A DNA stretch of 64,000 nucleotides from Paludibacter sp. GTDB lineage: Bacteria; Bacteroidota; Bacteroidia; Bacteroidales; Paludibacteraceae. The notes under the pieces are model-generated. The model had not been told where the DNA came from. It made no database searches and saw only the letters and a program-made list of their open reading frames with translations. Of the stretch, positions 1 through 11,232 are shown one piece after another; the stretch's first letter is position 1, and every line of letters begins with the position of its first letter. The translations under genes and the position numbers were made by a program. The stretch is from contig JAQTTH010000007.1 in the NCBI GenBank assembly GCA_028710895.1, positions 1-64,000 on the forward strand, read 5' to 3'.

Positions 1-544
1 ACCAGTTCCATTGTTCCGGCTGTTGATACGTCGCCTATTGGTCGAATGTTGACCTGTGCCATTGTTCCGGCTGTTAGATCGCTTGTCTATTGATTGAATG
101 TTGAGAAGTGCCATTTTTCCTGGTGCTGATCGTTTGCCTATTGGTTGAATGTTGACCAGTTCCATTGTTCCGGCTGTTTGATCGCTTGCCTATTGGTTGA
201 ATGTTGACCAGTGCAATTGTCCGGCTGTTGATAGGTCGCCTATTGGTCGAGTATTGACCAGTGCCATTGTCCGGGTGTTTGATGGTTGCCTATTGGTTGA
301 GTGTTGACCAGTTCAATTGTTCCGGCTGTTGATGGCTGCCTATTGGTCGAGTATTGACCAGTTCAATTGTTCCGGCTGTTAGATCGCTTGTCTATTGATT
401 GAATGTTGAGAAGTGCCATTGTTCCCGGTGCGGATCGTTTGCCTATTGGTTGAATGTTGACGAGTGCCATTGTTCCGGCTGTTAGATTGCATGTCTATTG
501 ATTGCATGTTGAGAAGTGCAATTGTCCGGCTGTTGATAGGTCGC
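1..544. repeat. Imperfect tandem repeat array, unit about 50-52 bp
   Basis: At least ten and a half diverged units can be read, each built like ACCAGTGCCATTGTTCCGGC, then a variable GAT-containing middle, then CTATTGGTTGAATGTTG. Unit length drifts between about 50 and 52 bp, so no reading frame is kept through the array. A variant unit with the middle GCTTGTCTATTGATTG recurs near 85, 390 and 490, so variants have been copied within the array. The array runs off the left edge. There are no unique spacers, so it is not a CRISPR. It lies just beyond the terminator of the last visible element gene and may mark a recombination-prone or structural part of the element. Confidence 0.85.
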
Positions 545-651
545 AAAAACTCTATTTTGTACCCGTTTTTGTACTGTTTTTGTACCCATTTATCTAAATG
601 CCTGAAAATAAGTATTTGTTTCAAGTCTTATAAAGACTAGCACACTAAAAA

Positions 652-681
652 ATACAAAAAACACGGTTTAAATTCCGTGTT
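652..681 (-). terminator. Intrinsic terminator overlapping the stop codon of the HNH-like gene
   Basis: The 7-bp stem AACACGG/CCGTGTT with an 8-nt loop (660-681) is followed on the minus strand by TTTTTTGTATTTTTT. The stop codon at 668-670 lies inside the loop. It ends the visible part of the element's minus-strand transcription. Confidence 0.75.
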
Positions 682-1498
682 CTTGTTTGGTGTTTTTAAA
701 TTCATTTGAAAACTTTTCGTAATCTCTCAAAATCTCTTTTTCGCTCTGTTTTCTCAATCTTACGGGGTTATGTCCGTTTTCTGTAAGATATTTGTTTACC
801 TGCTTTAATTCGTCCGTTTTTGTTGGTTGCTTTGGTTTGTATTCCAGTTCGTGTAAATATCCGTTTTTCAAATCTTGCAGAATTTCGCTTATAAGTGTAT
901 TTGTAAAGCTGTTTATTATAATTAAGCAATCACGGACGGGTAACCCGTGGGCGTTTGCTGTGTCTATAATGCTTTTTTGCTCAAAAATGTGTTTTCCTAA
1001 ATACGTCAAATAAACTTCAATGTGTTGTATTTTCTTATATTTGGCAAAAAATCCCCGTTTTTCAATGATATGTTGTAAATATAAACGGGTCTTAAAATTA
1101 TCTCTTATTTTGAAATTCTTGTCAACTTCAAAATAACAACGTAAAGCTGTCAATAAATCGGCTGCATTTACTTTGTTGTTTTGTTCAGAGGTAAATAAAC
1201 GGCTGTATTTAATGTTTTCTTTGCTTAAGTTCGTTTTATTACCGTCAATATAGACTATTTGCCCACTTTTGTACTGTTCGCCTTTAAAAGTCAGTAAAAC
1301 CAATTTCGGAACGCTCAAACATTCTTTTTCGATCCTTATGTAGTTCCCTGAAGTAGGTTTTATATATTTTGCCGTTTGTAAGTTGTAAACTTTGCCCGTT
1401 TCGTTTATCAATAAGCTTTCAAAACCTTGCACGGCTCTAAATCCGTCCTTTTTCAATTGCCTTGCTGTTTTCGGGTGTATGTATCTTTTTTGCTTCAT
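668..1498 (-). CDS. HNH-like (NUMOD/HNH_3 type) protein with a lost catalytic His
   Basis: The 276-residue protein has an N-terminal stretch organised like NUMOD4/HNH_3 homing-endonuclease proteins: an 'ETGKVYN' strand, then 'VPKLVLLTF' and 'YIDGNKTNLSKENIKYS' at about residues 35-100. In the family the last block normally reads xHIDGNxxNN; here Tyr83 stands where the His is expected, so nuclease activity is doubtful. The C-terminal 170 residues are Lys-rich and unassigned. I chose the Met at 1498 because the upstream Met at 1567 would overlap the preceding gene by 37 nt. It is the last gene before the terminator and repeat array. A DNA-binding role is inference only. Confidence 0.6.
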   Translation of the reverse strand: MKQKRYIHPKTARQLKKDGFRAVQGFESLLINETGKVYNLQTAKYIKPTSGNYIRIEKECLSVPKLVLLTFKGEQYKSGQIVYIDGNKTNLSKENIKYSRLFTSEQNNKVNAADLLTALRCYFEVDKNFKIRDNFKTRLYLQHIIEKRGFFAKYKKIQHIEVYLTYLGKHIFEQKSIIDTANAHGLPVRDCLIIINSFTNTLISEILQDLKNGYLHELEYKPKQPTKTDELKQVNKYLTENGHNPVRLRKQSEKEILRDYEKFSNEFKNTKQEHGI

Positions 1499-1530
1499 TT
1501 CTTCAAATTGGTTTTTTTGTTTTACTTGTT

Positions 1531-1854
1531 TTAGTCTGATTCGGTGGCATTTTTTATATATCTCCATGCTGTTACACGGCTTATTTTTAAAGTTTCGCTA
1601 ATTTCTTGCATCGTTCGACCTGCTTTTTTTAGCTCTAAAGCCCTTTGTTTTATAGGTTTACAGTTTTTTAAAGCCGTCCATTGTTCCACTGTTTGCCATT
1701 TTTCGAGGGTTCGCACTGGTAACCCGTCCATCAATTTACTAATTTCTTGCATGTTTAAACCCATTAAGTAATACTTTCGGGCTTTTTCCCGTTGGTCTGC
1801 TGAATAGCTGTTACGGGGCTTTAGTTTCTTTGCTTTGGGTACTGTTGAACTCAT
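1531..1854 (-). CDS. Double helix-turn-helix protein, small-terminase-like
   Basis: The 107-residue basic protein has two HTH units. The first (residues about 22-60, 'ARKYYLMGLNMQEISKLM' followed by 'TLEKWQTVEQW') has the layout of phage small terminase subunits of the gpP/PBSX type. The second (about 72-101, 'GRTMQEISETLKISRVTAW') is a resolvase/Hin-like HTH. A small terminase recognises packaging sites on DNA; in phage satellites a private small terminase redirects the helper's packaging motor. No large terminase is visible here. The alternative is a plain transcription or transposition accessory factor. Family assignment is by pattern only. Confidence 0.55.
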   Translation of the reverse strand: MSSTVPKAKKLKPRNSYSADQREKARKYYLMGLNMQEISKLMDGLPVRTLEKWQTVEQWTALKNCKPIKQRALELKKAGRTMQEISETLKISRVTAWRYIKNATESD

Positions 1855-2607
1855 ACGCTTTATTATTAAAATTGGATTAAAGTAATTACTATTTTTCGAG
1901 GGTGTTTTTTGTGTTGTTTTTTCTGAAACATTTTGTAATCAAACCCCCGTTTTAATTTCTTGTGCTATTTCGTTCCTGCAAAGGTTTAAAATAGGGCTTT
2001 TCGGGGTTTTTTAGTTCTTTTCGGGCTGTTTGTGCGCTCTAAGTACGCTTAACCTTCATTTTTTAATTATTTAATCGTATATTCTGAAACATTGTGTTTT
2101 TTTGCTTCAATTTTGGGTGGTTTTTACTTTAATTCTCATTTTTCAATTAAATCACATGCAAACTCCTTTTTTCGGGTGTAGGTAAGTTTCTGTTTATTTC
2201 ATTTTGTTGCATTGCCCTTGTTTCTGTTCTAATCCGTTCCCAAATATCAATGTGTTTTTGTTCTTTGCCGGGTGCGTTCCATAGTTGGGGCTGTGATCGG
2301 GTTCGTATGTGTCGTTTTTCCATGTTCTTACTTATACTTATATTTTAACACTGTGCCCGCTTTTAAATTCTCTCCGTTCATGCCTTACGGCGGGTGTAGT
2401 ACGAGCTGCCGGAAATTCGTTTTTTCGTGTCGGTTTTTGTGCTGTTTTTCGGTTTACGGCTGCGTATATAGCCGTAAAATGTTGTTTGTTCTCTTAATAA
2501 ATGTGTTTAAGTTCATTTTATATGTTCATTTATTGCCGTGCCGTGTTCTATTGTGTTTGTTTTTAAGGAAAAGCGAACACCTAAAAATTGACGTAAAGGG
2601 CATTTTA
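1855..2607. other. 750-bp non-coding stretch between the Rep and terminase-like genes
   Basis: I see no convincing gene. A plus-strand frame of 121 codons (2272-2637) is Cys/Phe-rich and low in complexity, and it overlaps the end of the Rep gene in antisense, so I left it out. The sequence is rich in T and G runs on the plus strand and has two copies of TCTGAAACATT (1922-1932 and 2083-2093). Its place directly downstream of a rolling-circle-type Rep gene makes it the natural place to look for a replication origin or packaging site, but no nick-site hairpin could be fixed by eye. Confidence 0.4.
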
Positions 2608-3594
2608 TTAAATGTCATTTATTTTACTGATTATTAGGTATTTAAACGTTTCGGATGTTTTTGAAATTTGTTTGTCTAATTTCATGTTTTTAGCTTCTAT
2701 TTCGTCAAATTGTTCTTTAAACCATCTATATTTTTTGTTTGAGATTGCGCCCATTTTTAAAAGTGCCTTTTGATTAATCAACGTTTGTTCAGCTCCTATT
2801 TTATCAATGCTTTTTATAATTTCATACTGAACGTTTGTAATATCCTTTGTTTTAAAATAGTGCGTTTCAAACTCCAAATCTTCAACAAAACGCTGTTTAA
2901 ATTCGTACTTTGTCATTTGCTGAAAATTCGGATCAAACAACTGTCTGAAGTAAACTTTTTCCGATGGGCGGTGCGTGTCCTTTTCTACCCTCAAAACATT
3001 GTCGGGGATGGTCTCCCTACGTTCTTTGTCTTTTAGTTTGCTTCGGGCTTCAAAGGTTTTGTTATAGAAAATATAAACAATGCGTTTATCCTTGTCTTTG
3101 TTGGTGCTGTATTGCTTGTATTCTTTGTAATGCAAATCTTCTAAAATCCGCATTTGTCGCCCGTTTACAGTTATTCGGTTTAATTCCCTCATATAGTGGT
3201 CGGGGTCTGTGGGTGTAATTATGTTTATACCAACTTCAAACGCTTTAACCAGTGCCGTACTTAGGTCTATTTTTAAAAAGTCGGTTAATAGTTGGTTTGC
3301 TTCGTTTGCGCTTTCAAAATTGAAGTCGTCGTAATTATATAAATCCCCATTTTTAACGGAATTATAGAACTTATGCAGTGAGAAAGATATTGAAAAACTG
3401 CCTTTTCTCCCGGATGTTGGTAGTTCTATTTTGATATAAAGCCCTTTGTTTTGCTTCATTCCCTCATATCCCTTATTGTGCAAAATTCCCTTTTTTTCGT
3501 CCTTTACGAATAAATTAAAACGGGTGCAAAACGTTTCCTGTTCGGGTTTGCTTGCAAATGGATAGGGCAATAAAAGTCGTATATTGTCGTACAT
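2608..3594 (-). CDS. Filamentous-phage/plasmid-type replication initiation protein (gene II/X-like)
   Basis: The 328-residue protein resembles the Phage_CRI/Phage_X replication initiators of inoviruses and related plasmids. It opens with 'MYDNIRLLLPYP', the usual start of that family, and has central blocks 'KAFEVGINI', 'ELNRITVNGRQMRI', 'YIFYNKTFEARSK' and 'VLRVEKDTHRPSEKVYF'. These proteins nick a double-strand origin and start rolling-circle replication. I chose the Met at 3594 because of the family-typical start; ten further codons are open upstream. The tail is a Lys-rich helix. It suggests that the integrated element can replicate as a circle after excision. No inovirus Zot or coat gene accompanies it here. 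Confidence 0.65.
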   Translation of the reverse strand: MYDNIRLLLPYPFASKPEQETFCTRFNLFVKDEKKGILHNKGYEGMKQNKGLYIKIELPTSGRKGSFSISFSLHKFYNSVKNGDLYNYDDFNFESANEANQLLTDFLKIDLSTALVKAFEVGINIITPTDPDHYMRELNRITVNGRQMRILEDLHYKEYKQYSTNKDKDKRIVYIFYNKTFEARSKLKDKERRETIPDNVLRVEKDTHRPSEKVYFRQLFDPNFQQMTKYEFKQRFVEDLEFETHYFKTKDITNVQYEIIKSIDKIGAEQTLINQKALLKMGAISNKKYRWFKEQFDEIEAKNMKLDKQISKTSETFKYLIISKINDI

Positions 3595-3721
3595 TAAAAG
3601 TCTTATTAATAATTTATTTTGCATTTTTTCCGTGTGTGCTTATAAATTACAATCTGTATTACTGTGCTTTACATAAAATACATGTGTTTTGTTCCAGGCC
3701 CATTGTGTAACCTTTACCCGG

Positions 3722-4087
3722 TCATAACTCCAAACTCATTTGCAGTTCCTTTGGGGCTTGTATTTCTGGCTTATTATAAACCAATAGTAAAAAGTCAAAC
3801 AATGCCGTTTTTAAGTTTATATTCTTGTACATACGTTGCAGCATGTTTATTGTTTGTTCTCGGTTGTAGCCTGTATCTAGGTAGCAAATGAAGTCGTTCA
3901 GTTGATCAATTCTCAATACTCGAACATCTTGTAGCGTTGCAGTTCCTTTGGGGTTGTCGTTTATCTCAATTTCGTACACATTGCCCACTTTGTATTTATT
4001 CGGGTTGTGTAGTCGTATGGTTGTAAAAGCCTTGTTTTGTAGCTTGTTATTCCAATTATACGAAAACTGAATTTTGTCCGTGTGCAT
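3722..4087 (-). CDS. Small phage-type protein, possible ASCH/PUA-like fold
   Basis: The 121-residue protein contains 'FTTIRLHNPNKYKVGNVYEI' followed by strands and 'YLDTGYNREQTINMLQRMY'. That order of a Thr-Ile-Arg strand, a 'G..YEI' strand and a late DTGY helix is like the small ASCH/PUA-like proteins of Bacteroidetes phages, which are thought to bind RNA or modified nucleotides. The fold is inferred from the pattern, not proven. It lies 11 nt downstream of the 73-residue gene and upstream of Rep, in the same orientation. Confidence 0.5.
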   Translation of the reverse strand: MHTDKIQFSYNWNNKLQNKAFTTIRLHNPNKYKVGNVYEIEINDNPKGTATLQDVRVLRIDQLNDFICYLDTGYNREQTINMLQRMYKNINLKTALFDFLLLVYNKPEIQAPKELQMSLEL

Positions 4088-4098
4088 ATCTTTTCAGT

Positions 4099-4320
4099 TT
4101 AGTAGGCTGTAACTCCTGTTACTTTTGCGCTCTCGGTGCAAAACCGTAATATTGTGTATTTATCCCGTTCTTTTGGGGCGATGTGTTTAAGTACATACGC
4201 CCGTAATCGCATACCCGGGGGCGTATCACTATCTAAAAAAATAATGTTTTTTACTGCTTGCTTTTCGCCCGTGGGAATGTGCTGAATAATAACACTCCCA
4301 AAATATATTTTTTGGTGCAT
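4099..4320 (-). CDS. Hypothetical small element protein (73 aa)
   Basis: I do not recognise this 73-residue protein. It is basic and begins with beta-like strands ('KIYFGSVIIQHI'), and it contains a 'DSDTPPGMRLRAYVLKHI' helix. It is the first gene downstream (minus strand) of the non-coding interval 4321-4703 and is followed after 11 nt by the ASCH-like gene, so the two are probably cotranscribed towards Rep. Its start lies only 12 nt from the -33 box of a plus-strand promoter, so the two transcription units are divergent. Confidence 0.5.
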   Translation of the reverse strand: MHQKIYFGSVIIQHIPTGEKQAVKNIIFLDSDTPPGMRLRAYVLKHIAPKERDKYTILRFCTESAKVTGVTAY

Positions 4321-4331
4321 AATGATAGAGT

Positions 4332-4363
4332 TTTGATATTTACAAAATACTTTCTATCTTTGC
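4332..4363 (+). promoter_or_regulatory. Bacteroidetes-type promoter for a plus-strand transcript
   Basis: The -33 box TTTG (4332-4335), a 19-nt spacer and the -7 box TATCTTTGC (4355-4363) match the consensus TTTG-N19-TAnnTTTGC exactly. It points away from every recognised protein gene of the element and no plus-strand gene follows it. Confidence 0.7.
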
Positions 4364-4367
4364 AGCT

Positions 4368-4597
4368 TATTGTTTTGCACTTCTTACCTGCAAAGCTTTA
4401 AATTGGTTTAAACCGTGTTCAACAAGTGAGTTGTACACGGTTTATTTTTTAGCTCTCTTACCTGCCTTTCAATTGGTTTAACCCGTTTTTCGTGTGTGTT
4501 ACTCTCTTTCTTTTTTTGAAAATAAAATCCGTCCGCCTGTCATTTTTTAGTATGAGCTTAAAAATGACAGTCAGAGAGTGGGCGGACGGCTTTTTTT
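4368..4597 (+). ncRNA. Putative small RNA with two candidate terminators
   Basis: Transcription from the promoter at 4332-4363 would start near 4368. The first hairpin (4409-4444; 15-bp stem with one mismatch, 6-nt loop) is followed by TTTTTTAG and would end an RNA of about 80 nt; a second, larger hairpin (4529-4589) with T7 would end one of about 230 nt. The segment beginning CTTACCTGC and running through AATTGGTTTAA is present twice (from 4384 and from 4458), so the RNA contains a tandem duplication. No start codon with a credible frame is seen. Existence of the RNA is inference from promoter plus terminator. Confidence 0.45.
4529..4597. repeat. Structured repeat, copy 1
   Basis: The outer stem CCGTCCGCC/GGCGGACGG (4529-4537, 4581-4589) encloses an inner stem TGTCATTTTT/AAAAATGACA (4538-4547, 4560-4569), with an unpaired 11-nt strand GTCAGAGAGTG only on the 3' side. 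It is followed on the plus strand by CTTTTTTT. Copy 2 at 6225-6292 has the same architecture. It can serve as a terminator in the plus direction and weakly in the minus direction. Confidence 0.75.
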
Positions 4598-4703
4598 AAT
4601 AGCGAAATTTGCAGTCGTAACCCGTTTTTTTGCTGCAAACTTCGCTAACTTCATTTAATGCCAATATGTGAAATGCCTTAAACATATCCAATGCATTAAA
4701 TTT

Positions 4704-5348
4704 TTATTTAAGTACTAATTTGTTTATAAAATCAGTTTCGCAAACCATTACAAACGGGCGGTGTCGGATGTGTTTTCCCTCCTGTTCGGGAAACTCTAGG
4801 CTTTCAATAGCGATTCTGTTTTCCCCAGTCATAAATAGTTCCGCATATGCATTGTTTAAGTATATTGGACTTTCATTTTTTGACATCTTGATTAACTTTA
4901 GAATATCAGTCTCCGGTAACTTTCTGTCTTTATCAATCAAAACCCCTTTTATTGTAAATATATAATCTCCCGTATTGAATTGCCTTTTTACAGTCCCTTG
5001 CCGTTCGGACAATGCTGTGCGAATAATCGTATTTTTAAAAGTAACCCTAATAGTTGCACAGTCAATTTTAAGTTTGTAGTCTCCTTTTGCATTTGTTAGC
5101 TCAACTGGCAAATAAACTTCAATGCCACTAGGGTGTCCCGGTAAATTACGTATTTCATTTATTTTTATTCCGTGCTTTGAATAATCCTCCATTATCGCAC
5201 CGTTATCCGATGCCATCCCTTTCCATTCATTTGGAATGCTATAATTAATAGCAATTTCTTTATTATTACTATCACTTTTTGCAATATGATAAGGGCGTTG
5301 AAAGTATGTATTGTAAACGTCTAATAAATCATTAGAAACATGTCCCAT
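4704..5348 (-). CDS. DUF6046-like phage tail/baseplate protein
   Basis: The 214-residue protein matches the general layout I know from DUF6046 proteins of Bacteroides phages: a 'GIEVYLPVELTNAKGDYKL' strand pair, 'TIRVTFKNTIIRT', then 'GTVKRQFNTGDYIFTIKGVL', and a closing 'IAIESLEFPEQEG' plus 'RPFVMVCETDF'. Members sit in tail or baseplate modules, and the 'G.VKE....DW.I.I.G' core looks like baseplate-wedge or LysM-associated tail proteins. Here it follows the 198-residue gene after 17 nt. A baseplate-type protein without the rest of a tail module is unusual and suggests either a decayed prophage or a protein that modifies a helper phage. The molecular role is inferred. Confidence 0.55.
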   Translation of the reverse strand: MGHVSNDLLDVYNTYFQRPYHIAKSDSNNKEIAINYSIPNEWKGMASDNGAIMEDYSKHGIKINEIRNLPGHPSGIEVYLPVELTNAKGDYKLKIDCATIRVTFKNTIIRTALSERQGTVKRQFNTGDYIFTIKGVLIDKDRKLPETDILKLIKMSKNESPIYLNNAYAELFMTGENRIAIESLEFPEQEGKHIRHRPFVMVCETDFINKLVLK

Positions 5349-5365
5349 AAGTCAAGCTATTTAAA

Positions 5366-5962
5366 TTAAAATCTCGATATATACCCTAAATCAACACTAT
5401 AACCTATTGTTTGCCCCTCAAACTTATATCCTCTTAAGTCAGGAAAACCCGGTTCCACGGTCAAAAAATACTTATTTAATCCGTCTAACATTCCGTCCAA
5501 AAATTTAAACATGTCGGCTTGTTTCTGATTCTGTGCGTATAATGTGAACTTTTCAGCAATTATGTTCTCATACCCGTCAACGGTGTTTATAACTCCGTCT
5601 GTAAGTTGTAAATACATTCCTATATCACTTCTTTGCAATTGTGGTTCTGTTCCGCACTCTTTAACCAGTTCAACAATGTTTTGGGGAGTGTCTAACATGT
5701 CTATTAGTTTGCTTCGGTTCATTGTTAGACTATTAACCGTCTGCATTTCGGTATTGTCAACAATCAAATCTTTAATCTTGTATTCAAGCCCGGAGCTTTG
5801 TCGGTTGGCTGAAACTAAGCTAAACATTTGGCTTATGGTTGGTTTAACTCCAATTTCATTAAAACCATTGTAAAGGTTTTGCAAGTCTTCAGCCGCCTTT
5901 TTGCAAAGTTCTATTTTTTCACTTATTGCTGTTTTGTCTATCGACATTATTACTTTTTCCAT
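5366..5962 (-). CDS. Hypothetical element protein (198 aa)
   Basis: I do not recognise this 198-residue protein. The N-terminal third is helical and acidic ('EKIELCKKAAEDLQNLYNGF'), the middle is mixed, and the C-terminus ends in small beta-like segments rich in Gly and Tyr ('YKFEGQTIGYSVDLGYISRF'). A second Met lies five codons in. It sits 14 nt downstream of a small protein gene and 17 nt upstream of the DUF6046-like gene, so the three form one transcription unit bounded by the two structured repeats. A structural role beside the tail-like protein is possible but is only inferred from position. Confidence 0.5.
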   Translation of the reverse strand: MEKVIMSIDKTAISEKIELCKKAAEDLQNLYNGFNEIGVKPTISQMFSLVSANRQSSGLEYKIKDLIVDNTEMQTVNSLTMNRSKLIDMLDTPQNIVELVKECGTEPQLQRSDIGMYLQLTDGVINTVDGYENIIAEKFTLYAQNQKQADMFKFLDGMLDGLNKYFLTVEPGFPDLRGYKFEGQTIGYSVDLGYISRF

Positions 5963-5976
5963 GTAATTTTATTTTT

Positions 5977-6198
5977 TTAATGTTCGTTATTCTTAAAAAT
6001 TTCTATCTGCTGTTCGGGTGTTTGAATGGTGAATAATAATAGTTGTTTTAGCACATTCAAATTTGGTTCTATCTCACAATCAATCTTTTCAAATATCAAT
6101 AGAGTATCTGCTAAAGCCTTTTGTATCTCTTTTAATACCTCTTTTGGCTTTTGGGTTGGTATCTCAATAATTAGACTGGTTTCAGTTTCTTTTATCAT
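5977..6198 (-). CDS. Small acidic protein, member 3 of an element-internal family
   Basis: The 73-residue protein begins 'MIKETETSLIIEIPTQKP', continues with 'EIQKALADTLLIFEKI' and ends with 'TIQTPEQQIEIFKN'. The same order (LIIEI strand, a Q.AL.(E/D) helix, then a T..EQQ motif) is seen in the two small proteins at 7595-7834 and 7849-8082, so the three are paralogues, this one the most diverged. Function is unknown. It leads the 198-aa/DUF6046 cassette, immediately after structured repeat copy 2. Confidence 0.55.
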   Translation of the reverse strand: MIKETETSLIIEIPTQKPKEVLKEIQKALADTLLIFEKIDCEIEPNLNVLKQLLLFTIQTPEQQIEIFKNNEH

Positions 6199-6224
6199 AA
6201 TCTTACTTTTGTTTAGTTCAAAAC

Positions 6225-6292
6225 AGCCGTCCGCCTATCATTTTTCCCCTGAGATAAAAAAACGATAAAGAGAGAGGACGGACGGCTTTTTT
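6225..6292. repeat. Structured repeat, copy 2
   Basis: The outer stem AGCCGTCCG/CGGACGGCT (6225-6233, 6279-6287) encloses an inner TATCATTTTT arm opposite AAAAACGATA, with the strand AAGAGAGAGGA unpaired on the 3' side, and is followed by TTTTTT on the plus strand. It is the same design as copy 1 at 4529-4597. TACTTTTG at 6204-6211 matches the -7 consensus just upstream on the plus strand, without a good -33 box. It also follows the stop of the prohead-protease-like gene on the minus strand and may terminate it. Confidence 0.7.
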
Positions 6293-6304
6293 GCGGTGAA
6301 CGGT

Positions 6305-7195
6305 TTATTTGTTTGTTTTGATAGTTTCGTAATATAATGGGTAATTTGTTTTTACGTCCTCCAATTCACCCGTTTTGTATAGATCGGAAAATGTTTTCCC
6401 TTTGTACTTTTCCGGCAATTCACGAACTTTTATAGAACTTATTAAGTCCTCTAGTCCTTTGGGGTTGTTTGCATACGTTTTGCGTAGTTTGTCGGCTAAG
6501 TCCTTAGTTAGTTTCTGTTCTGCACGTCCTTTATTGAGTATTTTATCAACCTCAATTCGGTTTAAATCTTCTAGGGCTTTTTCTGCTTTATTTACACGGT
6601 GGGCTTTGGCTCTTAAGTCCGTCAATGCAACTGTTATTTGTTTCGATGTTGCATTATCCTTAAGGTTTAGAGTGCTTTTAATTGTTAGGGTTGCACTAAA
6701 TACGGGCTTTTTTCCAATAATAGAATTAACGCCCTTATTTGTGTCGGATAAGTCCATTAGAACGTTATCTGTTTCGTCATAAATTTTCGCTAACGCGTTA
6801 TAGTTTCCGGGGATATCTACAATTGAAATATCACGGGGAAACCATTTAGTGACTGTTATTCCTGTTTGCCCCTCTAGTTTCATTGCCTTATCGTCACTCC
6901 ATTCCAGTGCAACAATTTTCCCACAGCTTGCAGCATCATAAAAACCGTCCTCAATTTGTTGTGCTAAGTCGGGGAATGCTGTTGTATTTACTACGGGCTT
7001 TGCATAAAGCTTATCACCGTCAAATCGGAAATCTTCCCAACGGACTGCAACTCCCTTTTCACGGTTATGCATTAAAAAACCTATTGCCGGTGTATATCTG
7101 TTTAGTTGTATTCCCTCGGTTAAACACCTATAACTGTACACATTTACCGAGTTGTCGGTTAAGCAATATTCTTTATTAATTTTTTGTTGAGCCAT
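6305..7195 (-). CDS. Prohead-protease-like protein (S78/HK97 type) with C-terminal extension
   Basis: The 296-residue protein has the S78 prohead-protease layout: 'LTDNSVNVYSYRCLTEGI' (about 12-29), 'IGFLMHNREKG' with the candidate catalytic His43, 'VRWEDFRFDGDKLYAKPV' (51-68), 'IEDGFYDAASCG' with the candidate Ser90, and 'WFPRDISIVDIPGNYNA' (118-134). In tailed phages this enzyme cuts scaffold and capsid delta domains. Residues about 150-296 form a Lys/Leu-rich helical extension that could be a scaffold part, as in fused protease-scaffold proteins. In phages the major capsid gene normally follows; here it does not. It starts 53 nt downstream of a 12-bp inverted repeat. Capsid protein may come from a helper, or the gene may be a relic. 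Confidence 0.65.
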   Translation of the reverse strand: MAQQKINKEYCLTDNSVNVYSYRCLTEGIQLNRYTPAIGFLMHNREKGVAVRWEDFRFDGDKLYAKPVVNTTAFPDLAQQIEDGFYDAASCGKIVALEWSDDKAMKLEGQTGITVTKWFPRDISIVDIPGNYNALAKIYDETDNVLMDLSDTNKGVNSIIGKKPVFSATLTIKSTLNLKDNATSKQITVALTDLRAKAHRVNKAEKALEDLNRIEVDKILNKGRAEQKLTKDLADKLRKTYANNPKGLEDLISSIKVRELPEKYKGKTFSDLYKTGELEDVKTNYPLYYETIKTNK

Positions 7196-7247
7196 TTTGT
7201 TTGGTTCTTTTAGTTTATAACTCTATTTGCTGCCCGTGCATGAGTTA

Positions 7248-7280
7248 TGCCACATTGTCAAAATACCTGACAATGTGGCA
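7248..7280. promoter_or_regulatory. Perfect 12-bp inverted repeat
   Basis: TGCCACATTGTC and GACAATGTGGCA are separated by 9 nt. Neither strand has a T-run after it, so it is a poor terminator. It lies between the HTH_17 gene and the start of the prohead-protease-like gene, a position that suits an operator or a recombination-protein site. Confidence 0.6.
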
Positions 7281-7286
7281 AAATAA

Positions 7287-7568
7287 CTAATCTTGTAAGT
7301 CTTTTAATAGTAGCTTTTCGGCTTCGATGCGTTCCACATATATTTTTCGTGCGCCCTGGGTGCGTACTACTTTCATTTGTCCGCTGTTTTTCAGTCGTTC
7401 AAATGTTGACCGTCCAATCTTTAATAAGCTGCAAACCTCTTTAGGGCTTAAAAGCTCTTTGTTTGGCTTGTTGGTCAACGATGTAAGCATTGTATTAATG
7501 CCGTGTATCATTTCCTTTGTTTCGTTCCATTCTTGTGCCGGAACTGTAATAACATTTATTGTATCCAT
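7287..7568 (-). CDS. HTH_17/MerR-like DNA-binding protein, Xis-like
   Basis: The 93-residue protein has an N-terminal helical part followed by 'LLSPKEVCSLLKIGRSTFER' and then 'GARKIYVERIEAEKLLLK'. This is the HTH_17 (excisionase/MerR) fold that almost every Bacteroidetes integrative element carries, used to bend DNA for excision or to switch transcription. In the element it lies three small genes downstream of the repressor and just before an inverted repeat. Whether it acts as excisionase or as an activator of the downstream structural-type genes cannot be decided from the sequence. Confidence 0.7.
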   Translation of the reverse strand: MDTINVITVPAQEWNETKEMIHGINTMLTSLTNKPNKELLSPKEVCSLLKIGRSTFERLKNSGQMKVVRTQGARKIYVERIEAEKLLLKDLQD

Positions 7569-7594
7569 ATCTTTAAATTGGTTTTTATTGCCGT

Positions 7595-7834
7595 TTAAAT
7601 GCTTTTTAATATTGCTTTTTGCTGTTCAAATGTTGGAAACGTTTCTTTCATTAATTGCAATAAAACAAATTGAAATTGTGGTTCGCCATACGTTTTGTAA
7701 TCATAGTATTGTATGGCTTCAATTAATGCGCTTTGAATTTCGTCTACTTTCCCGGCAGCTTTCTGTTCTATATTGTTCCCGGCTTCGCCTAATTCAATTT
7801 CAATAATTAGCTTGTTATCTTCTACTCTAATCAT
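7595..7834 (-). CDS. Small acidic protein, member 2 of an element-internal family
   Basis: The 79-residue protein reads 'MIRVEDNKLIIEIEL', 'DEIQSALIEAIQYYDYKTYG' and 'TFPTFEQQKAILK'. It is a clear paralogue of the neighbour at 7849-8082: the same N-terminal strand, the same (F/I)Q.AL.EAIQ helix and the same PT.EQQK motif. I took the internal Met at 7834 because it aligns with the neighbour's start; a frame open further upstream to 7933 would overlap that neighbour. Function unknown. Confidence 0.6.
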   Translation of the reverse strand: MIRVEDNKLIIEIELGEAGNNIEQKAAGKVDEIQSALIEAIQYYDYKTYGEPQFQFVLLQLMKETFPTFEQQKAILKSI

Positions 7835-7848
7835 GACGTTATTTGTTT

Positions 7849-8082
7849 TTAGTGGGTGGGTTGGTTGAATAATGATTTTTGCTGTTCCAGTGTTGGCAAA
7901 GTAGCATTTAAAAGCGCTACAAGCCTGTAACATGGGTTTTGTTCTCCAAAATCCTTGTAATTAAAGAACTGGATCGCTTCGGTTAACGCCCTTTGAAATT
8001 CTTGTAGCTCCTCGGCAGGGTTAAAGTAATTTCCCTCAATTTCAATCTCAATAATTAATTTGTTTGCTTCTGTTCTTACCAT
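7849..8082 (-). CDS. Small acidic protein, member 1 of an element-internal family
   Basis: The 77-residue protein reads 'MVRTEANKLIIEIEI', 'EFQRALTEAIQFFNYKDFGE' and 'TLPTLEQQKSLFNQ'. Together with 7595-7834 it is a tandem duplicate (stop to next start 14 nt), and 5977-6198 is a third, more distant copy. The size, acidity and position near the repressor would fit a small antagonist or adaptor protein, but that is speculation. Confidence 0.6.
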   Translation of the reverse strand: MVRTEANKLIIEIEIEGNYFNPAEELQEFQRALTEAIQFFNYKDFGEQNPCYRLVALLNATLPTLEQQKSLFNQPTH

Positions 8083-8118
8083 GACTTCAAATTGTTTGTA
8101 GTTATTATTATTTATTTA

Positions 8119-8325
8119 TCAATCTGTTTTTATTTTCATTAAACGCCAAAATGTGCGTTCGTCCATTGGATAAATTTTTTTTACATGAGTTTTATAAACC
8201 CATCTTTTGCACTTATCTTGTCTGCCCGCTTCGTAATGCTGTTTTACTATTGCTTGCACTAGCTTTGCCCGTTCGATGGTGCTTTTGTTCATACAGTAAG
8301 CGTTAAGCCATTTGTAAATGGCCAT
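8119..8325 (-). CDS. Small basic hypothetical protein (68 aa)
   Basis: The 68-residue Lys/Arg-rich protein has the pattern 'AIVKQHYEAGRQDKCKRWVYKTHVKK' split over about residues 25-50 (Gly-Arg-x-Asp-x-Cys-x-x-Trp-Val), then 'MDERTFWRLMK'. I have a loose memory of small proteins of this kind in other Bacteroidetes mobile elements, but I cannot name a family. Its start overlaps the end of the Xre gene by 23 nt, so the two are translationally coupled. It may bind nucleic acid. Confidence 0.5.
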   Translation of the reverse strand: MAIYKWLNAYCMNKSTIERAKLVQAIVKQHYEAGRQDKCKRWVYKTHVKKIYPMDERTFWRLMKIKTD

Positions 8326-8551
8326 TTAATACGGCTTTTGCCCGTTCATTTGCTTTGGTTTCGGCTGCCTGAATTTCTTCTAGGTATTCGGCAACTGCGT
8401 TTATTACTTTGGCTTTTTTATCGAACATTGGATTATGTCCATTTAAAACCCGGCTAATCAGCGAAATTTCTAAACCGCTTCTTTTGGCAATGGCTGTTAA
8501 CGCACCGCTTGGAAGTTTAGATTTTAGTTCTTTAAGTTCCTGTGTGGTCAT
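8303..8551 (-). CDS. Xre-family (Cro/CI-type) repressor
   Basis: The 82-residue protein has a Cro/CI HTH: 'LPSGALTAIAKRSGLEISLI' followed by 'SRVLNGHNP', with a C-terminal helix containing 'AVAEYLEEIQAAETKA'. I chose the Met at 8551 because the promoter and operator lie at 8594-8636, inside the longer open frame. The operator is a 15-bp inverted repeat over the promoter spacer, which is the usual arrangement for autorepression. Position next to the integrase region and upstream of the small early genes suggests it controls the lysogeny/excision switch of the element. Confidence 0.7.
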   Translation of the reverse strand: MTTQELKELKSKLPSGALTAIAKRSGLEISLISRVLNGHNPMFDKKAKVINAVAEYLEEIQAAETKANERAKAVLNGHLQMA

Positions 8552-8593
8552 TGGTTTGTTGTTTTTCCTATGTGATGAATTTTGATTGTCGAT

Positions 8594-8625
8594 GCAAAAA
8601 TATGATAATACTTTGGATAAACAAA
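8594..8625 (-). promoter_or_regulatory. Promoter of the Xre operon
   Basis: On the minus strand TTTG (rc of 8622-8625), a 19-nt spacer and TATTTTTGC (rc of 8594-8602) match the Bacteroidetes consensus exactly. Transcription would start near 8588, about 37 nt before the start codon at 8551. Confidence 0.75.
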
Positions 8626-8636
8626 GTGCTATCATA
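8601..8636. promoter_or_regulatory. Operator: 15-bp inverted repeat over the promoter
   Basis: TATGATAATACTTTG (8601-8615) and CAAAGTGCTATCATA (8622-8636) form an inverted repeat with 13 of 15 matching positions and a 6-nt centre. It covers the -33 box and spacer of the Xre promoter. The likely ligand is the Xre protein encoded just downstream. Confidence 0.65.
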
Positions 8637-8701
8637 AGTTTTGAGCAAAAAAAATAGGCTGCTAAACGCAACCTATTGTTATATAATTAATTATATCTAT
8701 G

Positions 8702-9526
8702 TTAAATATTTATATTGTATGTGTTTTTAACTAGCTCGGTATAGTTGTTTGAGTAAATAACGCTATCAATTATTGAAATGTATTTATTTATAATTTCGCT
8801 ATTAAATGTAAAATTTTCAGGTAAATAGTACTCTGATTTTCTTTTGTAAGTTCTCAAGAAATTAGAAAGTTCGTTTTGAATTTTATTATCTATCCAATCA
8901 ATATATGGAATATCGTATCCCGTTTTAATATTGTACGGTGCTAAAAAACTTTTTAACCGTTCACGTAATATTAAAAGTTCAATACTATCTACACTTAAAT
9001 TTTTCAACACAAATTCGGCTTCTTGAACTGGATTTTTATAATAAAAAAACTTTTTTGCCTCTTCTTGGTTTTTTAGACTGAAAACATTTGCTAATTTATT
9101 ATATATTTCGTTTTCTATTTTTTCATTGCAATAGTTCCAAATAACACCGAAAATAGAATCAGTATAAAAATCAATATACGCATTCAGTAAATTTATAAAG
9201 TCGTCTTTACTGTTGTAACCCTTTAGGCTTATATAAAGAAACTCCTTTTTAACGCTGTTTTCTTCAATGTCTTTTAGCAGTATCTTTATTGTTCTTGTAT
9301 ATATTTCCTGTTCATAGTCTATCAAACTTCTTAAATTATTACCTGTCAATGTTTTTCCTTTTTTCTCAAATTCCTTTTCAGAAACAACGTCGCAAATATG
9401 GCTTTTTCGTTGTATATTCTTACTGTTGACAATTATAGAAATATACACGGGATAATATAAATTCTTTCCGTCTATTTCCGGCTTTAACTTTTTGTTTAGA
9501 TAATGTTTTACAGTTATTTTTCCCAT
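8702..9526 (-). CDS. Hypothetical protein with integrase arm-binding-like N-terminus
   Basis: The 274-residue AT-rich protein starts 'MGKITVKHYLNKKLKP' and 'YYPVYISIIVNSKNIQRKSH', a pattern close to the arm-site DNA-binding domain that opens Bacteroidetes tyrosine recombinases. The rest (about residues 90-274) is helical, rich in Asn, Ile, Lys and Tyr, and has no catalytic Arg-His-Arg-Tyr set, so it is not a recombinase. A -7-like TATATTTGC (rc of 9568-9576) lies about 40 nt upstream of the start. It could bind the integrase arm sites and modulate recombination, or be an unrelated cargo gene. It looks richer in A and T than its neighbours. Confidence 0.5.
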   Translation of the reverse strand: MGKITVKHYLNKKLKPEIDGKNLYYPVYISIIVNSKNIQRKSHICDVVSEKEFEKKGKTLTGNNLRSLIDYEQEIYTRTIKILLKDIEENSVKKEFLYISLKGYNSKDDFINLLNAYIDFYTDSIFGVIWNYCNEKIENEIYNKLANVFSLKNQEEAKKFFYYKNPVQEAEFVLKNLSVDSIELLILRERLKSFLAPYNIKTGYDIPYIDWIDNKIQNELSNFLRTYKRKSEYYLPENFTFNSEIINKYISIIDSVIYSNNYTELVKNTYNINI

Positions 9527-9590
9527 TTGATTTGATGTGTAAAAAGGCGTTAATGTTCAAAGAATATGCAAATATAAGCAATTTTATTTG

Positions 9591-10850
9591 TCATTTTGTA
9601 CCCGTTTGTACCGGGTTAATTTCTTGCAAGTACTTTCTCATTCTCTTTGTTTCGATGGTTCGGGTTCGGGCTTTCGGCTTGTTTGTAAAGGTTACGGCCT
9701 TTAGTTCGTCTATTACTGTCATATCCATAACTTTTGCGTAAATCTGTGTCGTTGCTAGTTTCTTGTGTCCTAATAGCTTTTGCACGGTGGTAATGTTTAC
9801 GCCTTTGTATAGTAAATAGGTGGCTTGTGTGTGCCTGGCGGTGTGGAATGTCAACCGCTTTGTTATCTCGGCAAGCGTGGCAATTTCTTTTAAACAACGG
9901 TTTACGTATTGGTTTGATAGTTCGTCAAAAATATACTTTCTGTCGGGCTTAGTGTAGGTTTTTAGTATCTCTATTGGTTTGCCGTCAAACAGCAAATATA
10001 ATGGAATGCGTTGTGGTGCGCCTGTCTTAATGGTTGATTCTAAAACAATCCATGTTTTGCCGTCTATGATCTGTATTTGGTCGGTGCGTAATGCTGAAAT
10101 GTCCGAAAACCTTAAACCGCAATAACACGAAAACAAAAACAAATCCTTTACTTTTTGTAAATATGCGTTTTCTTTGGTGAAAGTCAATTTTTCAATTTCT
10201 TGCACCTCTTCAGGGCTTAAGTATTCCCGGTTTGTTTCCTCTAGCTTCATTTTGAACTTACGAAACGGGTAACGGTTCAAATCAAATAGTTCTTTGTCAA
10301 TGGCCAAATTTATAAACTTGCGGATGTGCCGAAAGTATTTGTTTACCGTATTTACTTTCAGTCCTTTGTTTAATAAGTGCTTTTCTAGTTCGGTCATTAG
10401 TTCAAAACCTATCTCATCAAAAAGGATGTTCTTTCTAAACTCACAAATCATGTTGAGTGTGATAGTTTGTTGTACTTTGGTGGATGCTGTGTTGTTTCGG
10501 TCGGTTGCTATTTCGTTACGCATGAACTGTGTAAAGCTGTCAATCTCTTTGCCGTTCATGCATTCTTGTAGAATTTCGAGCGTAAACGGTTTACTGGCGT
10601 TTCTCCTGTCTAGTTCTGTTTTTTCCATTTTTGCCACAAATTCGGATATTTGGCGGTTTATCCTTATGGCGTTGGGGTGGTTTTTTACTCTACTATGCTT
10701 TTTATCCCATTGGTCGGGCGTTACATAGATGTTTGTAGTGAAGTACTTATTTACTCCGTTTAGATAGGCTCTAATTTGAATTAGTGCGCTGCCGTCCGAC
10801 AACAGTTTTCCCTTACGGTTGTAAACTGCTGAAAAAATCGCTTTTTCCAT
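9591..10850 (-). CDS. Tyrosine recombinase/integrase of the element
   Basis: The 419-residue protein has an N-terminal arm-binding domain (about 1-85), a SAM-like core-binding domain (about 100-200) and a catalytic domain with all expected residues: Arg247 in 'CGLRFSD', Lys275, His336-x-x-Arg339 in 'FHTARHTQATYLL', His362 in 'LLGHKKLATTQIYAKV' and nucleophile Tyr371. I chose the Met at 10850 because a complete promoter lies at 10878-10908, inside the longer open frame. The gene sits 210 nt from the 3' end of tRNA-Gln(CTG), typical of an integrase next to its attachment site. It should integrate and excise the element. Confidence 0.92.
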   Translation of the reverse strand: MEKAIFSAVYNRKGKLLSDGSALIQIRAYLNGVNKYFTTNIYVTPDQWDKKHSRVKNHPNAIRINRQISEFVAKMEKTELDRRNASKPFTLEILQECMNGKEIDSFTQFMRNEIATDRNNTASTKVQQTITLNMICEFRKNILFDEIGFELMTELEKHLLNKGLKVNTVNKYFRHIRKFINLAIDKELFDLNRYPFRKFKMKLEETNREYLSPEEVQEIEKLTFTKENAYLQKVKDLFLFSCYCGLRFSDISALRTDQIQIIDGKTWIVLESTIKTGAPQRIPLYLLFDGKPIEILKTYTKPDRKYIFDELSNQYVNRCLKEIATLAEITKRLTFHTARHTQATYLLYKGVNITTVQKLLGHKKLATTQIYAKVMDMTVIDELKAVTFTNKPKARTRTIETKRMRKYLQEINPVQTGTK

Positions 10851-10877
10851 ACTCTGCAAAACTTTAAATTGGTACGG

Positions 10878-10908
10878 CAAAGTAAAACAAAAAAAACGAA
10901 ACAACAAA
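10878..10908 (-). promoter_or_regulatory. Integrase promoter
   Basis: On the minus strand TTTG (rc of 10905-10908), 19 nt, then TTACTTTG (rc of 10878-10885), one mismatch from TAnnTTTG. The start codon at 10850 follows at a suitable distance. Confidence 0.6.
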
Positions 10909-11030
10909 ACACTTTATTTAATTCGGGTACAACGTTGGTACAAAAAACGTGGTTATTTGGGGAAAATTGCATTTATCCAAAAATGGTTTTAAAATGCTGT
11001 TTTTCAATATAAATTCGAACTTTTGGACAC

Positions 11031-11058
11031 AAAAAAGCCGTCATAAATAACGGCTTTT
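11031..11058 (-). terminator. Terminator of tRNA-Gln(CTG)
   Basis: Directly after the tRNA 3' end on the minus strand, AAAAGCCGT and ACGGCTTTT form a stem followed by TTTTTTG. Confidence 0.8.
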
Positions 11059-11059
11059 G

Positions 11060-11130
11060 TTGTCTTACTAGGATTCGAACCTAGACAGGCAGATCCAGAA
11101 ACTGCAGTGCTACCATTACACCATAAGACA
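11060..11130 (-). tRNA. tRNA-Gln (anticodon CTG)
   Basis: The 71-nt cloverleaf has acceptor arms TGTCTTA/TAAGACA, the D-arm GTGTAATGGTAGCAC, the anticodon loop TTCTGGA and the T-arm CTAGGTTCGAATCCTAG. CCA is not encoded. The element's integrase lies off its 3' end, so its 3' half is the likely attachment site. Confidence 0.93.
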
Positions 11131-11232
11131 GGGTATTTTTTGAGAGTTTCACTTCAATATTCTGGTTGTTGAAGTGGTTTGCGTGTCAAAATTACAAAAA
11201 TATTTTTGTGCTGACAAATCAAAGATTGAAAA

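Follow-up and report, generated by a model that had tools for sequence, protein, structure and literature searches.

A putative helper-dependent satellite with Mu-like phage genes beside tRNA-Gln(CTG) in a Paludibacter genome

The window analysed here is a stretch of 64,000 nucleotides from Paludibacter sp., bases 1-64000 of contig C4 in a genome (G000) of 41 contigs. At 668-10908 it holds an element with open genes, all on one strand, adjoining a tRNA-Gln(CTG) gene. Its gene content, compared with that of related elements, makes it likely that this is a helper-dependent integrative satellite of Bacteroidota that uses Mu-like (contractile-tail) temperate phages. A preliminary description of the window had suggested a Bacteroidota phage satellite; the open reading frames (ORFs) it listed are present and open, whilst its Xre repressor, promoter-operator, type of Rep and small terminase have proved weaker.

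Gene content of the element

The features are given in order from the tRNA inward. L041 is a complete related element, G024 a genome of the same genus with a Mu-like prophage and L091 a Mu-like viral fragment; the names MGKI and orf198 were coined in this analysis. HTH stands for helix-turn-helix, att for attachment site and aa for amino acids.

11059..11130, minus strand: tRNA-Gln(CTG), the target gene (ARAGORN and Rfam)
about 11057-11071, overlapping the tRNA-Gln(CTG) gene: attL core CTAGTAAGACAACAA, second copy on contig C11
11033..11058, no strand: terminator-like hairpin, just within the element, behind the tRNA
9591..10850, minus strand: tyrosine integrase (PF00589 2.5e-24; ORF open to 10907, start at 10850 placed from relatives)
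8702..9526, minus strand: MGKI, 274-aa protein, N-terminus MGKITVKHYLN, an N-terminal family common to the element group and a Mu-like phage fragment
8653..8677, minus strand: terminator-like hairpin between the gene of the 274-aa protein and the Xre-like gene
8303..8551, minus strand: Xre-like HTH protein, presumed repressor, weak HTH matches (ORF open to 8671, start at 8551 placed from relatives)
8119..8325, minus strand: 68-aa protein, related to proteins of Mu-like phages (39% to the G024 prophage, 46% to L091)
7849..8082, minus strand: small acidic protein, paralogue 1
7595..7933, minus strand: small acidic protein, paralogue 2
7287..7568, minus strand: HTH_17 protein, excisionase-like, border of the variable slot (PF12728 5e-5, TIGR01764 3.4e-6; 84% to L041)
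6305..7195, minus strand: slot gene 1, Mu-like prohead protease with a scaffold half (retains H43 and S90, lacks the junction Met)
5977..6198, minus strand: small acidic protein, paralogue 3, in the slot (E 7e-4 to paralogue 1)
5366..5962, minus strand: slot gene 2, orf198 (related genes occur in other elements and in L091)
4704..5348, minus strand: slot gene 3, DUF6046 tail protein (7.1e-20; G024 counterpart lies between tape measure and baseplate hub)
4099..4320, minus strand: 73-aa conserved small protein (76% to L041)
3722..4087, minus strand: 121-aa protein, ASCH-like below threshold (0.01, under the cut-off; 83% to L041)
2608..3594, minus strand: Rep-like protein, distantly related to Phage_CRI/G2P (ORF open to 3624, start at 3594 placed from relatives)
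1531..1854, minus strand: double-HTH protein, possibly small-terminase-like, conserved across the family
668..1498, minus strand: last ORF, HNH-like N-terminal part (phrog_959 2.7e-8; ORF open to 1567, start at 1498 placed from relatives)
555..585, no strand: three TTTTGTAC sites adjoining the array, the 8-mer also occurring near both att sites
4..541, no strand: tandem array of 5.3 repeat copies, period 103 bp, truncated at the contig end

The integrase, which has Arm and SAM domains besides Phage_integrase, is 80% identical to that of L041. R266, K294, H355, R358, H381 and Y390, which we take to be the catalytic residues, are invariant in the window and 8 relatives, in agreement with the complete integrase described beside tRNA-Gln(CTG). 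The HTH_17 protein also stands as described, with scores slightly under both curated cut-offs. The Rep-like protein has no noteworthy direct Pfam or NCBIfam match, and the Phage_X-type Rep of the preliminary description is upheld only through an alignment between the profile of its family and a Phage_CRI protein encoded in the same genome (93.6%, E 2e-7). The double-HTH protein matches Terminase_5 at 9.5e-5, above the cut-off of that family, but its call as a small terminase is only tentative because HTH_23 scores better (2.7e-8); it has no match in phage records.

The protease described as S78-like belongs to a Mu-like family (phrog_11321, 2.6e-32) and, among the best 120 of 560 matches, its closest homologues are 66% identical; identity to Porphyromonas phage prohead proteases is 32-34%, and no solved structure gave a match of note. 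H43, S90 and G92 are invariant in all 120 sequences of an alignment made from those matches (the window and 119 homologues). Phage KS10, like many others, has its scaffold gene in frame inside the protease gene (PMC2628397). The Met at the junction, probably the start of the scaffold, occurs in 118/120 aligned proteases and is missing in the window and in P0099. The window protease also has the shortest linker ahead of the C-terminal tail (9, median 19). It is possible, rather than probable, that it has lost an internal start for free scaffold and acts only as a fused, self-cleaving scaffold. An unusual divergence of the scaffold half was considered and dropped, the window ranking 24 of 120.

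Ends of the element

The 3' end of the tRNA has one further copy in the genome, at C11:163732-163747, with 1 mismatch in 16 and 491 bp from the contig end, and the core shared by the C4 and C11 sites is the 15 bp CTAGTAAGACAACAA. With this second core, the element therefore runs from about 11071 to 1 of C4, through a gap, into about 0.5 kb of C11. As in phage satellites, the element is integrated and carries an integrase and att sites of its own. The extension to the other att site that had been advised gave the site itself, with the stretch between C4 and C11 still lacking.

On the element side of C11 are two TTTTGTAC sites, 11 bp apart and about 71 and 60 bp from the core (its position taken by eye from the printed sequence), a placement matched in L041, where paired sites lie 69 and 58 bp from the core. 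There are 3 copies of TTTTGTAC in 52 kb of chromosome and 6 in the 11 kb element, 4 at the ends and 2 within genes. On the chromosome side of C11 a hairpin follows the core, as one does (by eye) behind tRNA-Gln in 9 other genomes, and this hairpin (L137, about 8689-8722) would be the original hairpin of the tRNA. As for an empty site, 29 loci were tested among 43 other genomes with a tyrosyl-tRNA synthetase gene; tRNA-Gln(CTG) lies beside that gene in 12/29, and in none of these 29 loci of the genus (flanks of at most 1.5 kb) do the chromosomal genes of C11 lie beside it.

About 360 bp beyond the core C11 reaches an insertion sequence (IS) end, the last 130 bp of the contig being an IS end common to several contig ends. 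This IS, presumably IS982-like, is found at contig ends of G000 (C11 164104-164238, C40 and C17) in several copies, and a 291-aa transposase at C37:68743-69618 follows an IS end; the multi-copy IS seems to break the G000 assembly. On C4, the left edge of the window is the contig end inside the tandem array, and this array has no second copy elsewhere in the genome.

A family of related elements

The Rep-like protein has 80 database matches, the window's own included. A scan of genome contigs with it gave 7 loci, and a search with the Rep profile found it in 11/393 genomes of the order, 4/48 of the genus and 11/300 of the family, sets which overlap and in each of which the own genome is counted. 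The same gene set does recur in related genomes: integrase, MGKI, HTH_17, Rep, HTH and the last ORF form a six-gene core, in one shared order, at seven loci (the window, L041, L042, L043, L045, L072 and L083). This count leaves out L044, L046, L047, L071, L073-L080 and L084-L090, which are partial, more divergent, different elements or phages, whilst L081 and L082 duplicate L041 and L046. In L084-L087 distant Rep relatives lie beside large phage-like genes, and the Rep family may therefore also serve true phages.

Direct repeats of 13-43 bp over a tRNA or tmRNA gene were found at 8/12 loci tested (L041 18 bp, L045 13, L077 13, L080 27, L083 16, L088 17, L139 43 and L140 17), with no such terminal repeat at L043, L072, L138 or L141. 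Among complete relatives with repeats at both ends, L041 (9.8 kb between them) and L083 (10.8 kb) are the closest to the window element. The sense ORFs of at least 200 aa in the window element, L041 and L083 are all core or slot genes, L041 having in addition one antisense ORF of that size within its repeat array; no ORF of at least 200 aa is left in L041 and L083 for a portal, large terminase or major capsid. The large terminase, portal and capsid not seen before were again not found in the window at 1-11073, nor was a transposase, and the head and packaging set is absent from the sequence seen as well as from L041 and L083, with the C4-C11 gap remaining.

The variable slot and its links to Mu-like phages

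Between HTH_17 and Rep the members differ. The window slot holds the protease, the small paralogue, orf198 and DUF6046, that of L041 an orf198 relative with protease and DUF6046 missing at that place, and that of L042 a weak orf198 relative and a 164-aa gene. L083 has a 117-aa protein, orf198 and a baseplate hub (phrog_4930, 2.7e-52; 19 phage records match, some annotated 'protein D' or 'baseplate hub'). The slots of L043, L045 and L072 are without protease, orf198, DUF6046, hub or 117-aa gene. The 117-aa protein of L083 resembles only the C-terminal tail of the protease-scaffold (54% over 24 residues; phrog_11321 0.0055) and ranks 14 of 6530 ORFs, right after 13 proteases, which is suggestive of a relative of the scaffold tail.

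These slot genes lead to Mu-like phages. The prophage on contig C124 of G024 has a Mu portal (Portal_Mu, 1.6e-62), large terminase and major head protein, and the window protease is 62%, DUF6046 55% and the 68-aa protein 39% identical to its counterparts. Its tape measure, DUF6046 and hub genes are consecutive, and L139, the window and L083 each match one of the three. Every picked ORF of 13 elements was compared with 8 genes of this prophage, and only DUF6046 and protease of the window, the hub of L083 and the tape measure of L139 matched; the family searches covered part of the relatives' ORFs. The DUF6046 tail protein described before is borne out; a literature search for DUF6046 found none. 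The fragment L091 has a transposase (phrog_310, 1.8e-44) and a transposition protein (phrog_296, 4e-29). Four genes link it to the element: orf198 (27% identity, E 3e-20), the gene of the 68-aa protein (8e-16), MGKI in its N-terminus (1e-8) and an acidic paralogue by a weak match (0.002). What sets the window element apart from Mu-like phages is its tyrosine integrase and Rep, together with the absence, as far as its sequence goes, of a transposase and of modules for the head or for packaging.

orf198 has just 1 close relative (88%) in the protein database. Its profile found it in 5/386 genomes, the own and 4 others (E 1e-10 to 3e-5 per genome), with a tape measure beside or near it in 2 of these 4 and the small terminase (TerS) adjoining in 1. 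In L139 (1329-14776), 13.4 kb with 43-bp repeats at tRNA-Pro in a one-contig genome, TerS (PF03592, 2.8e-39) adjoins orf198 and there are an integrase, a 1556-aa tape measure (phrog_9959, 3.6e-230) and no recognised capsid, so it may be a satellite that brings its own gene for tail length. In L141 orf198 adjoins another tape measure (PhageMin_Tail, 6e-16), and the fetched stretch has no integrase or terminal repeat. L138 has an integrase and a DUF5681 protein (2.6e-7) beside orf198, L140 an integrase and a similar small protein without noteworthy Pfam match. L139 and L140 have no pairwise BLAST match to the orf198 set. A viral-contig scan with orf198 returned only L091 again, and the orf198 of L091 has no match in phage records. 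Putative homologues of assembly or packaging genes are thus found in the window, L083 and L139.

A satellite, and the alternatives

A satellite is best supported because there is a conserved family with att sites, complete members have no head or packaging set, Mu-like genes sit in a variable slot, and orf198 is found also in elements without recognised capsid and in a Mu-like phage fragment. With few assembly genes and no shell of its own in the sequence seen, the data suggest that the element may travel in the particles of other phages. The satellite model is one of anatomy, with induction, packaging and remodelling as its expected consequences. Helper infection or induction would lift repression and the element would excise, then replicate through Rep. 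The helper would supply the capsid, the large terminase and most of the tail proteins, and assembly would be steered by the proteins of the slot. The protease-scaffold copy might join or compete with the helper scaffold, as CpmB does in SaPI1, DUF6046 might join or compete in tail or baseplate assembly, and the HTH protein at 1531-1854 may select element DNA for packaging. It is possible, rather than probable, that orf198 marks a superfamily of Bacteroidales satellites, each with an exchangeable slot of genes for Mu-like helpers (tape measure, DUF6046, hub or protease-scaffold), and that the window protease-scaffold, without internal start, redirects helper capsid size.

A number of points weigh against a satellite. 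Recognised structural genes are in just 2/7 core loci and none in the other 5, orf198 is in 4/7 with the L042 copy weak, and the scaffold-tail match of the L083 117-aa protein is itself weak (E 0.06 among 6530 ORFs, with 0.62 for the best reversed control). The protease and DUF6046 occur once each in the own genome (among 100 relatives, in 12 and 7 genomes, own included), with no second copy of either, and therefore no resident helper of that kind was seen there; the comparison with resident prophages that had been advised thus succeeded only through the homologues in G024. No near-identical DNA is in phage records, scanning viral contigs with Rep, with its profile and with the profile of the HTH protein at 1531-1854 gave no relatives, and Rep has one distant relative each in phage and plasmid records. 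The small-terminase assignment of 1531-1854 is weak, as is that of Xre, drawn from resemblance among relatives. The 13-bp repeats of L045 and L077 are near chance length, and repeats lying away from the tRNA measure 14 bp in L045 and are longer in L077 and L088. The C4-C11 gap has an IS end on the C11 side, the length seen being about 11.6 kb plus the gap. The satellite inference of the preliminary description is accordingly upheld in its element family, att sites and slot, and held back by that gap and by one criterion of known islands discussed below.

The element might instead be plasmid-like and integrative with no fixed phage link, its slot gathering phage genes as anti-phage decoys that spoil Mu-like head and tail assembly. 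This is unlikely, yet it would suit the five core loci without recognised structural genes and a second small int-Rep element of the same genome (L080) which shows none, and tail-assembly inhibitors (Tai) are known from both satellites and prophages (PMC11364771). The protease, however, keeps its catalytic residues, TerS and tape measure in orf198 elements serve packaging and assembly and are not obvious as decoys, and a PADLOC scan of 10 element proteins, part of its genes, gave no match. That a cryptic integrative element has by chance taken up a recently inserted piece of Mu-like prophage is very improbable; L041 does lack protease and DUF6046 at the same place, but in L083 the neighbour of an orf198 of the same family is another tail gene, and in the window orf198 has the protease on one side and DUF6046 on the other, an arrangement absent from the G024 prophage, in which these two lie 7.4 kb apart. 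Hardly credible, finally, is a decayed or truncated prophage that retained an integrase, a protease and a single tail gene. The protease and DUF6046 do belong to Mu-like phage types and the element is not closed in the assembly, so it is the relatives, not a closed sequence, that counter it: one ordered core recurs in seven loci with differing slots, and L041 and L083 leave no room between their terminal repeats for a head module in ORFs of at least 200 aa. No broken gene was noticed in the ORFs compared with relatives, and nonsynonymous divergence (pN) was lower than synonymous (pS) in the 10 element genes compared, orf198 left out and with pS near saturation in the phage comparisons.

Comparison with known satellites

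Most knowledge of phage satellites comes from Proteobacteria and Firmicutes, and it is unusual for a satellite to have tail genes among its cargo. Like the phage-inducible chromosomal islands (PICI) and the Staphylococcus aureus pathogenicity islands (SaPI), the putative satellite is about 10-15 kb, with an integrase at one end, a replication gene and att in a chromosomal site; unlike them it has a Bacteroidota host, structural-gene homologues and no recognised shared gene, and its induction and packaging are putative. PICIs are defined by the absence of structural genes, a conserved organisation of integrase, replication module and master regulator, and a size of about 12-15 kb (PMC6092414). 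In the element the integrase is clear, Rep is recognised by distant homology and the regulator is weak, but protease and DUF6046 are present, and because of these structural genes it is not filed as a PICI. A further mark of PICIs is an att site that prophages never occupy; in G017 the neighbouring tRNA-Gln(TTG) holds another integrase-bearing element.

CpmB of SaPI1 remodels the capsid and competes with the helper scaffold via a shared C-terminal motif (PMC5644958), and it may be taken as a precedent for a satellite scaffold, as Tai may for tail interference under the decoy alternative. SaPIbov5 likewise carries a counterpart of one of its helper's assembly genes, Ccm (PMC8569155), although the element has protease-scaffold and tail genes and no capsid gene was seen. 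Sid of P4 redirects the capsid through the scaffold (PMC7552001), a likeness to the role proposed for the element. No P4-type gene turned up among the scanned proteins, no dedicated search having been made. Capsid-forming PICIs (cfPICI) have their own major capsid and head genes. No relative of the G024 capsid, portal or large terminase was found in the window element, L041 or L083, the C4-C11 gap remaining.

The literature searched (titles and starts of abstracts, mostly without subscription papers) described no Bacteroidota satellite. The main text of PMC6092414 has 0 words beginning 'Bacteroid', and PMC12324425, on a new mobile element, concerns marine Charybdis elements. If the satellite interpretation is true, it offers complete examples of such a family, along with a candidate marker gene and a concrete group of assembly genes, and points to Mu-like phages as the likely helpers.

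Other features

The Xre-like protein has as its best HTH-named PHROG family a match at 0.0077, no structure match, and 73% identity to an 82-aa protein of L041, so that the Xre repressor described before persists in weak form. Its promoter-operator found no support, with no promoter-like site on the strand of the gene at 8551-8700 and 38 such sites in 1-11200 as against 34.4 in shuffles.

Tandem repeats of dissimilar sequence lie near the right ends of several elements (window 4-541, L041 12938-13833, L043 14712-15292 and L045 8947-9017, the last just 2.2 copies of 32 bp); an origin, a packaging site or a role in recombination are candidates for their function. L080 (5753-11815; G000:C25:76752-82814), the second int-HTH-Rep element of the own genome, is 6.1 kb long and overlaps the tmRNA gene; its Rep is a Phage_CRI protein (6e-20) and no phage structural gene was recognised. 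In G017, of the same genus, a different int-Rep element (L088, 365-6794) sits at the neighbouring tRNA-Gln(TTG), with a weaker orf198 relative (E 2e-4) near a DUF5681 protein.

MGKI as a free integrase arm domain is unsupported, with an hhalign probability of 0.1 and an Arm-DNA-bind_5 match in 1/9 members (0.046). Nor does it serve as a marker of the elements: 19/393 genomes match, but 15 of the 17 stretches fetched (the matches besides the own genome and G420, which holds L072) are without any other gene of the element set, L126 and L127 having a weak HTH_17 or integrase match. In L111-L125, from many Bacteroidales, the KITVKHYLN N-terminal domain of MGKI recurs in proteins of about 290 aa whose gene neighbours are apparently chromosomal.

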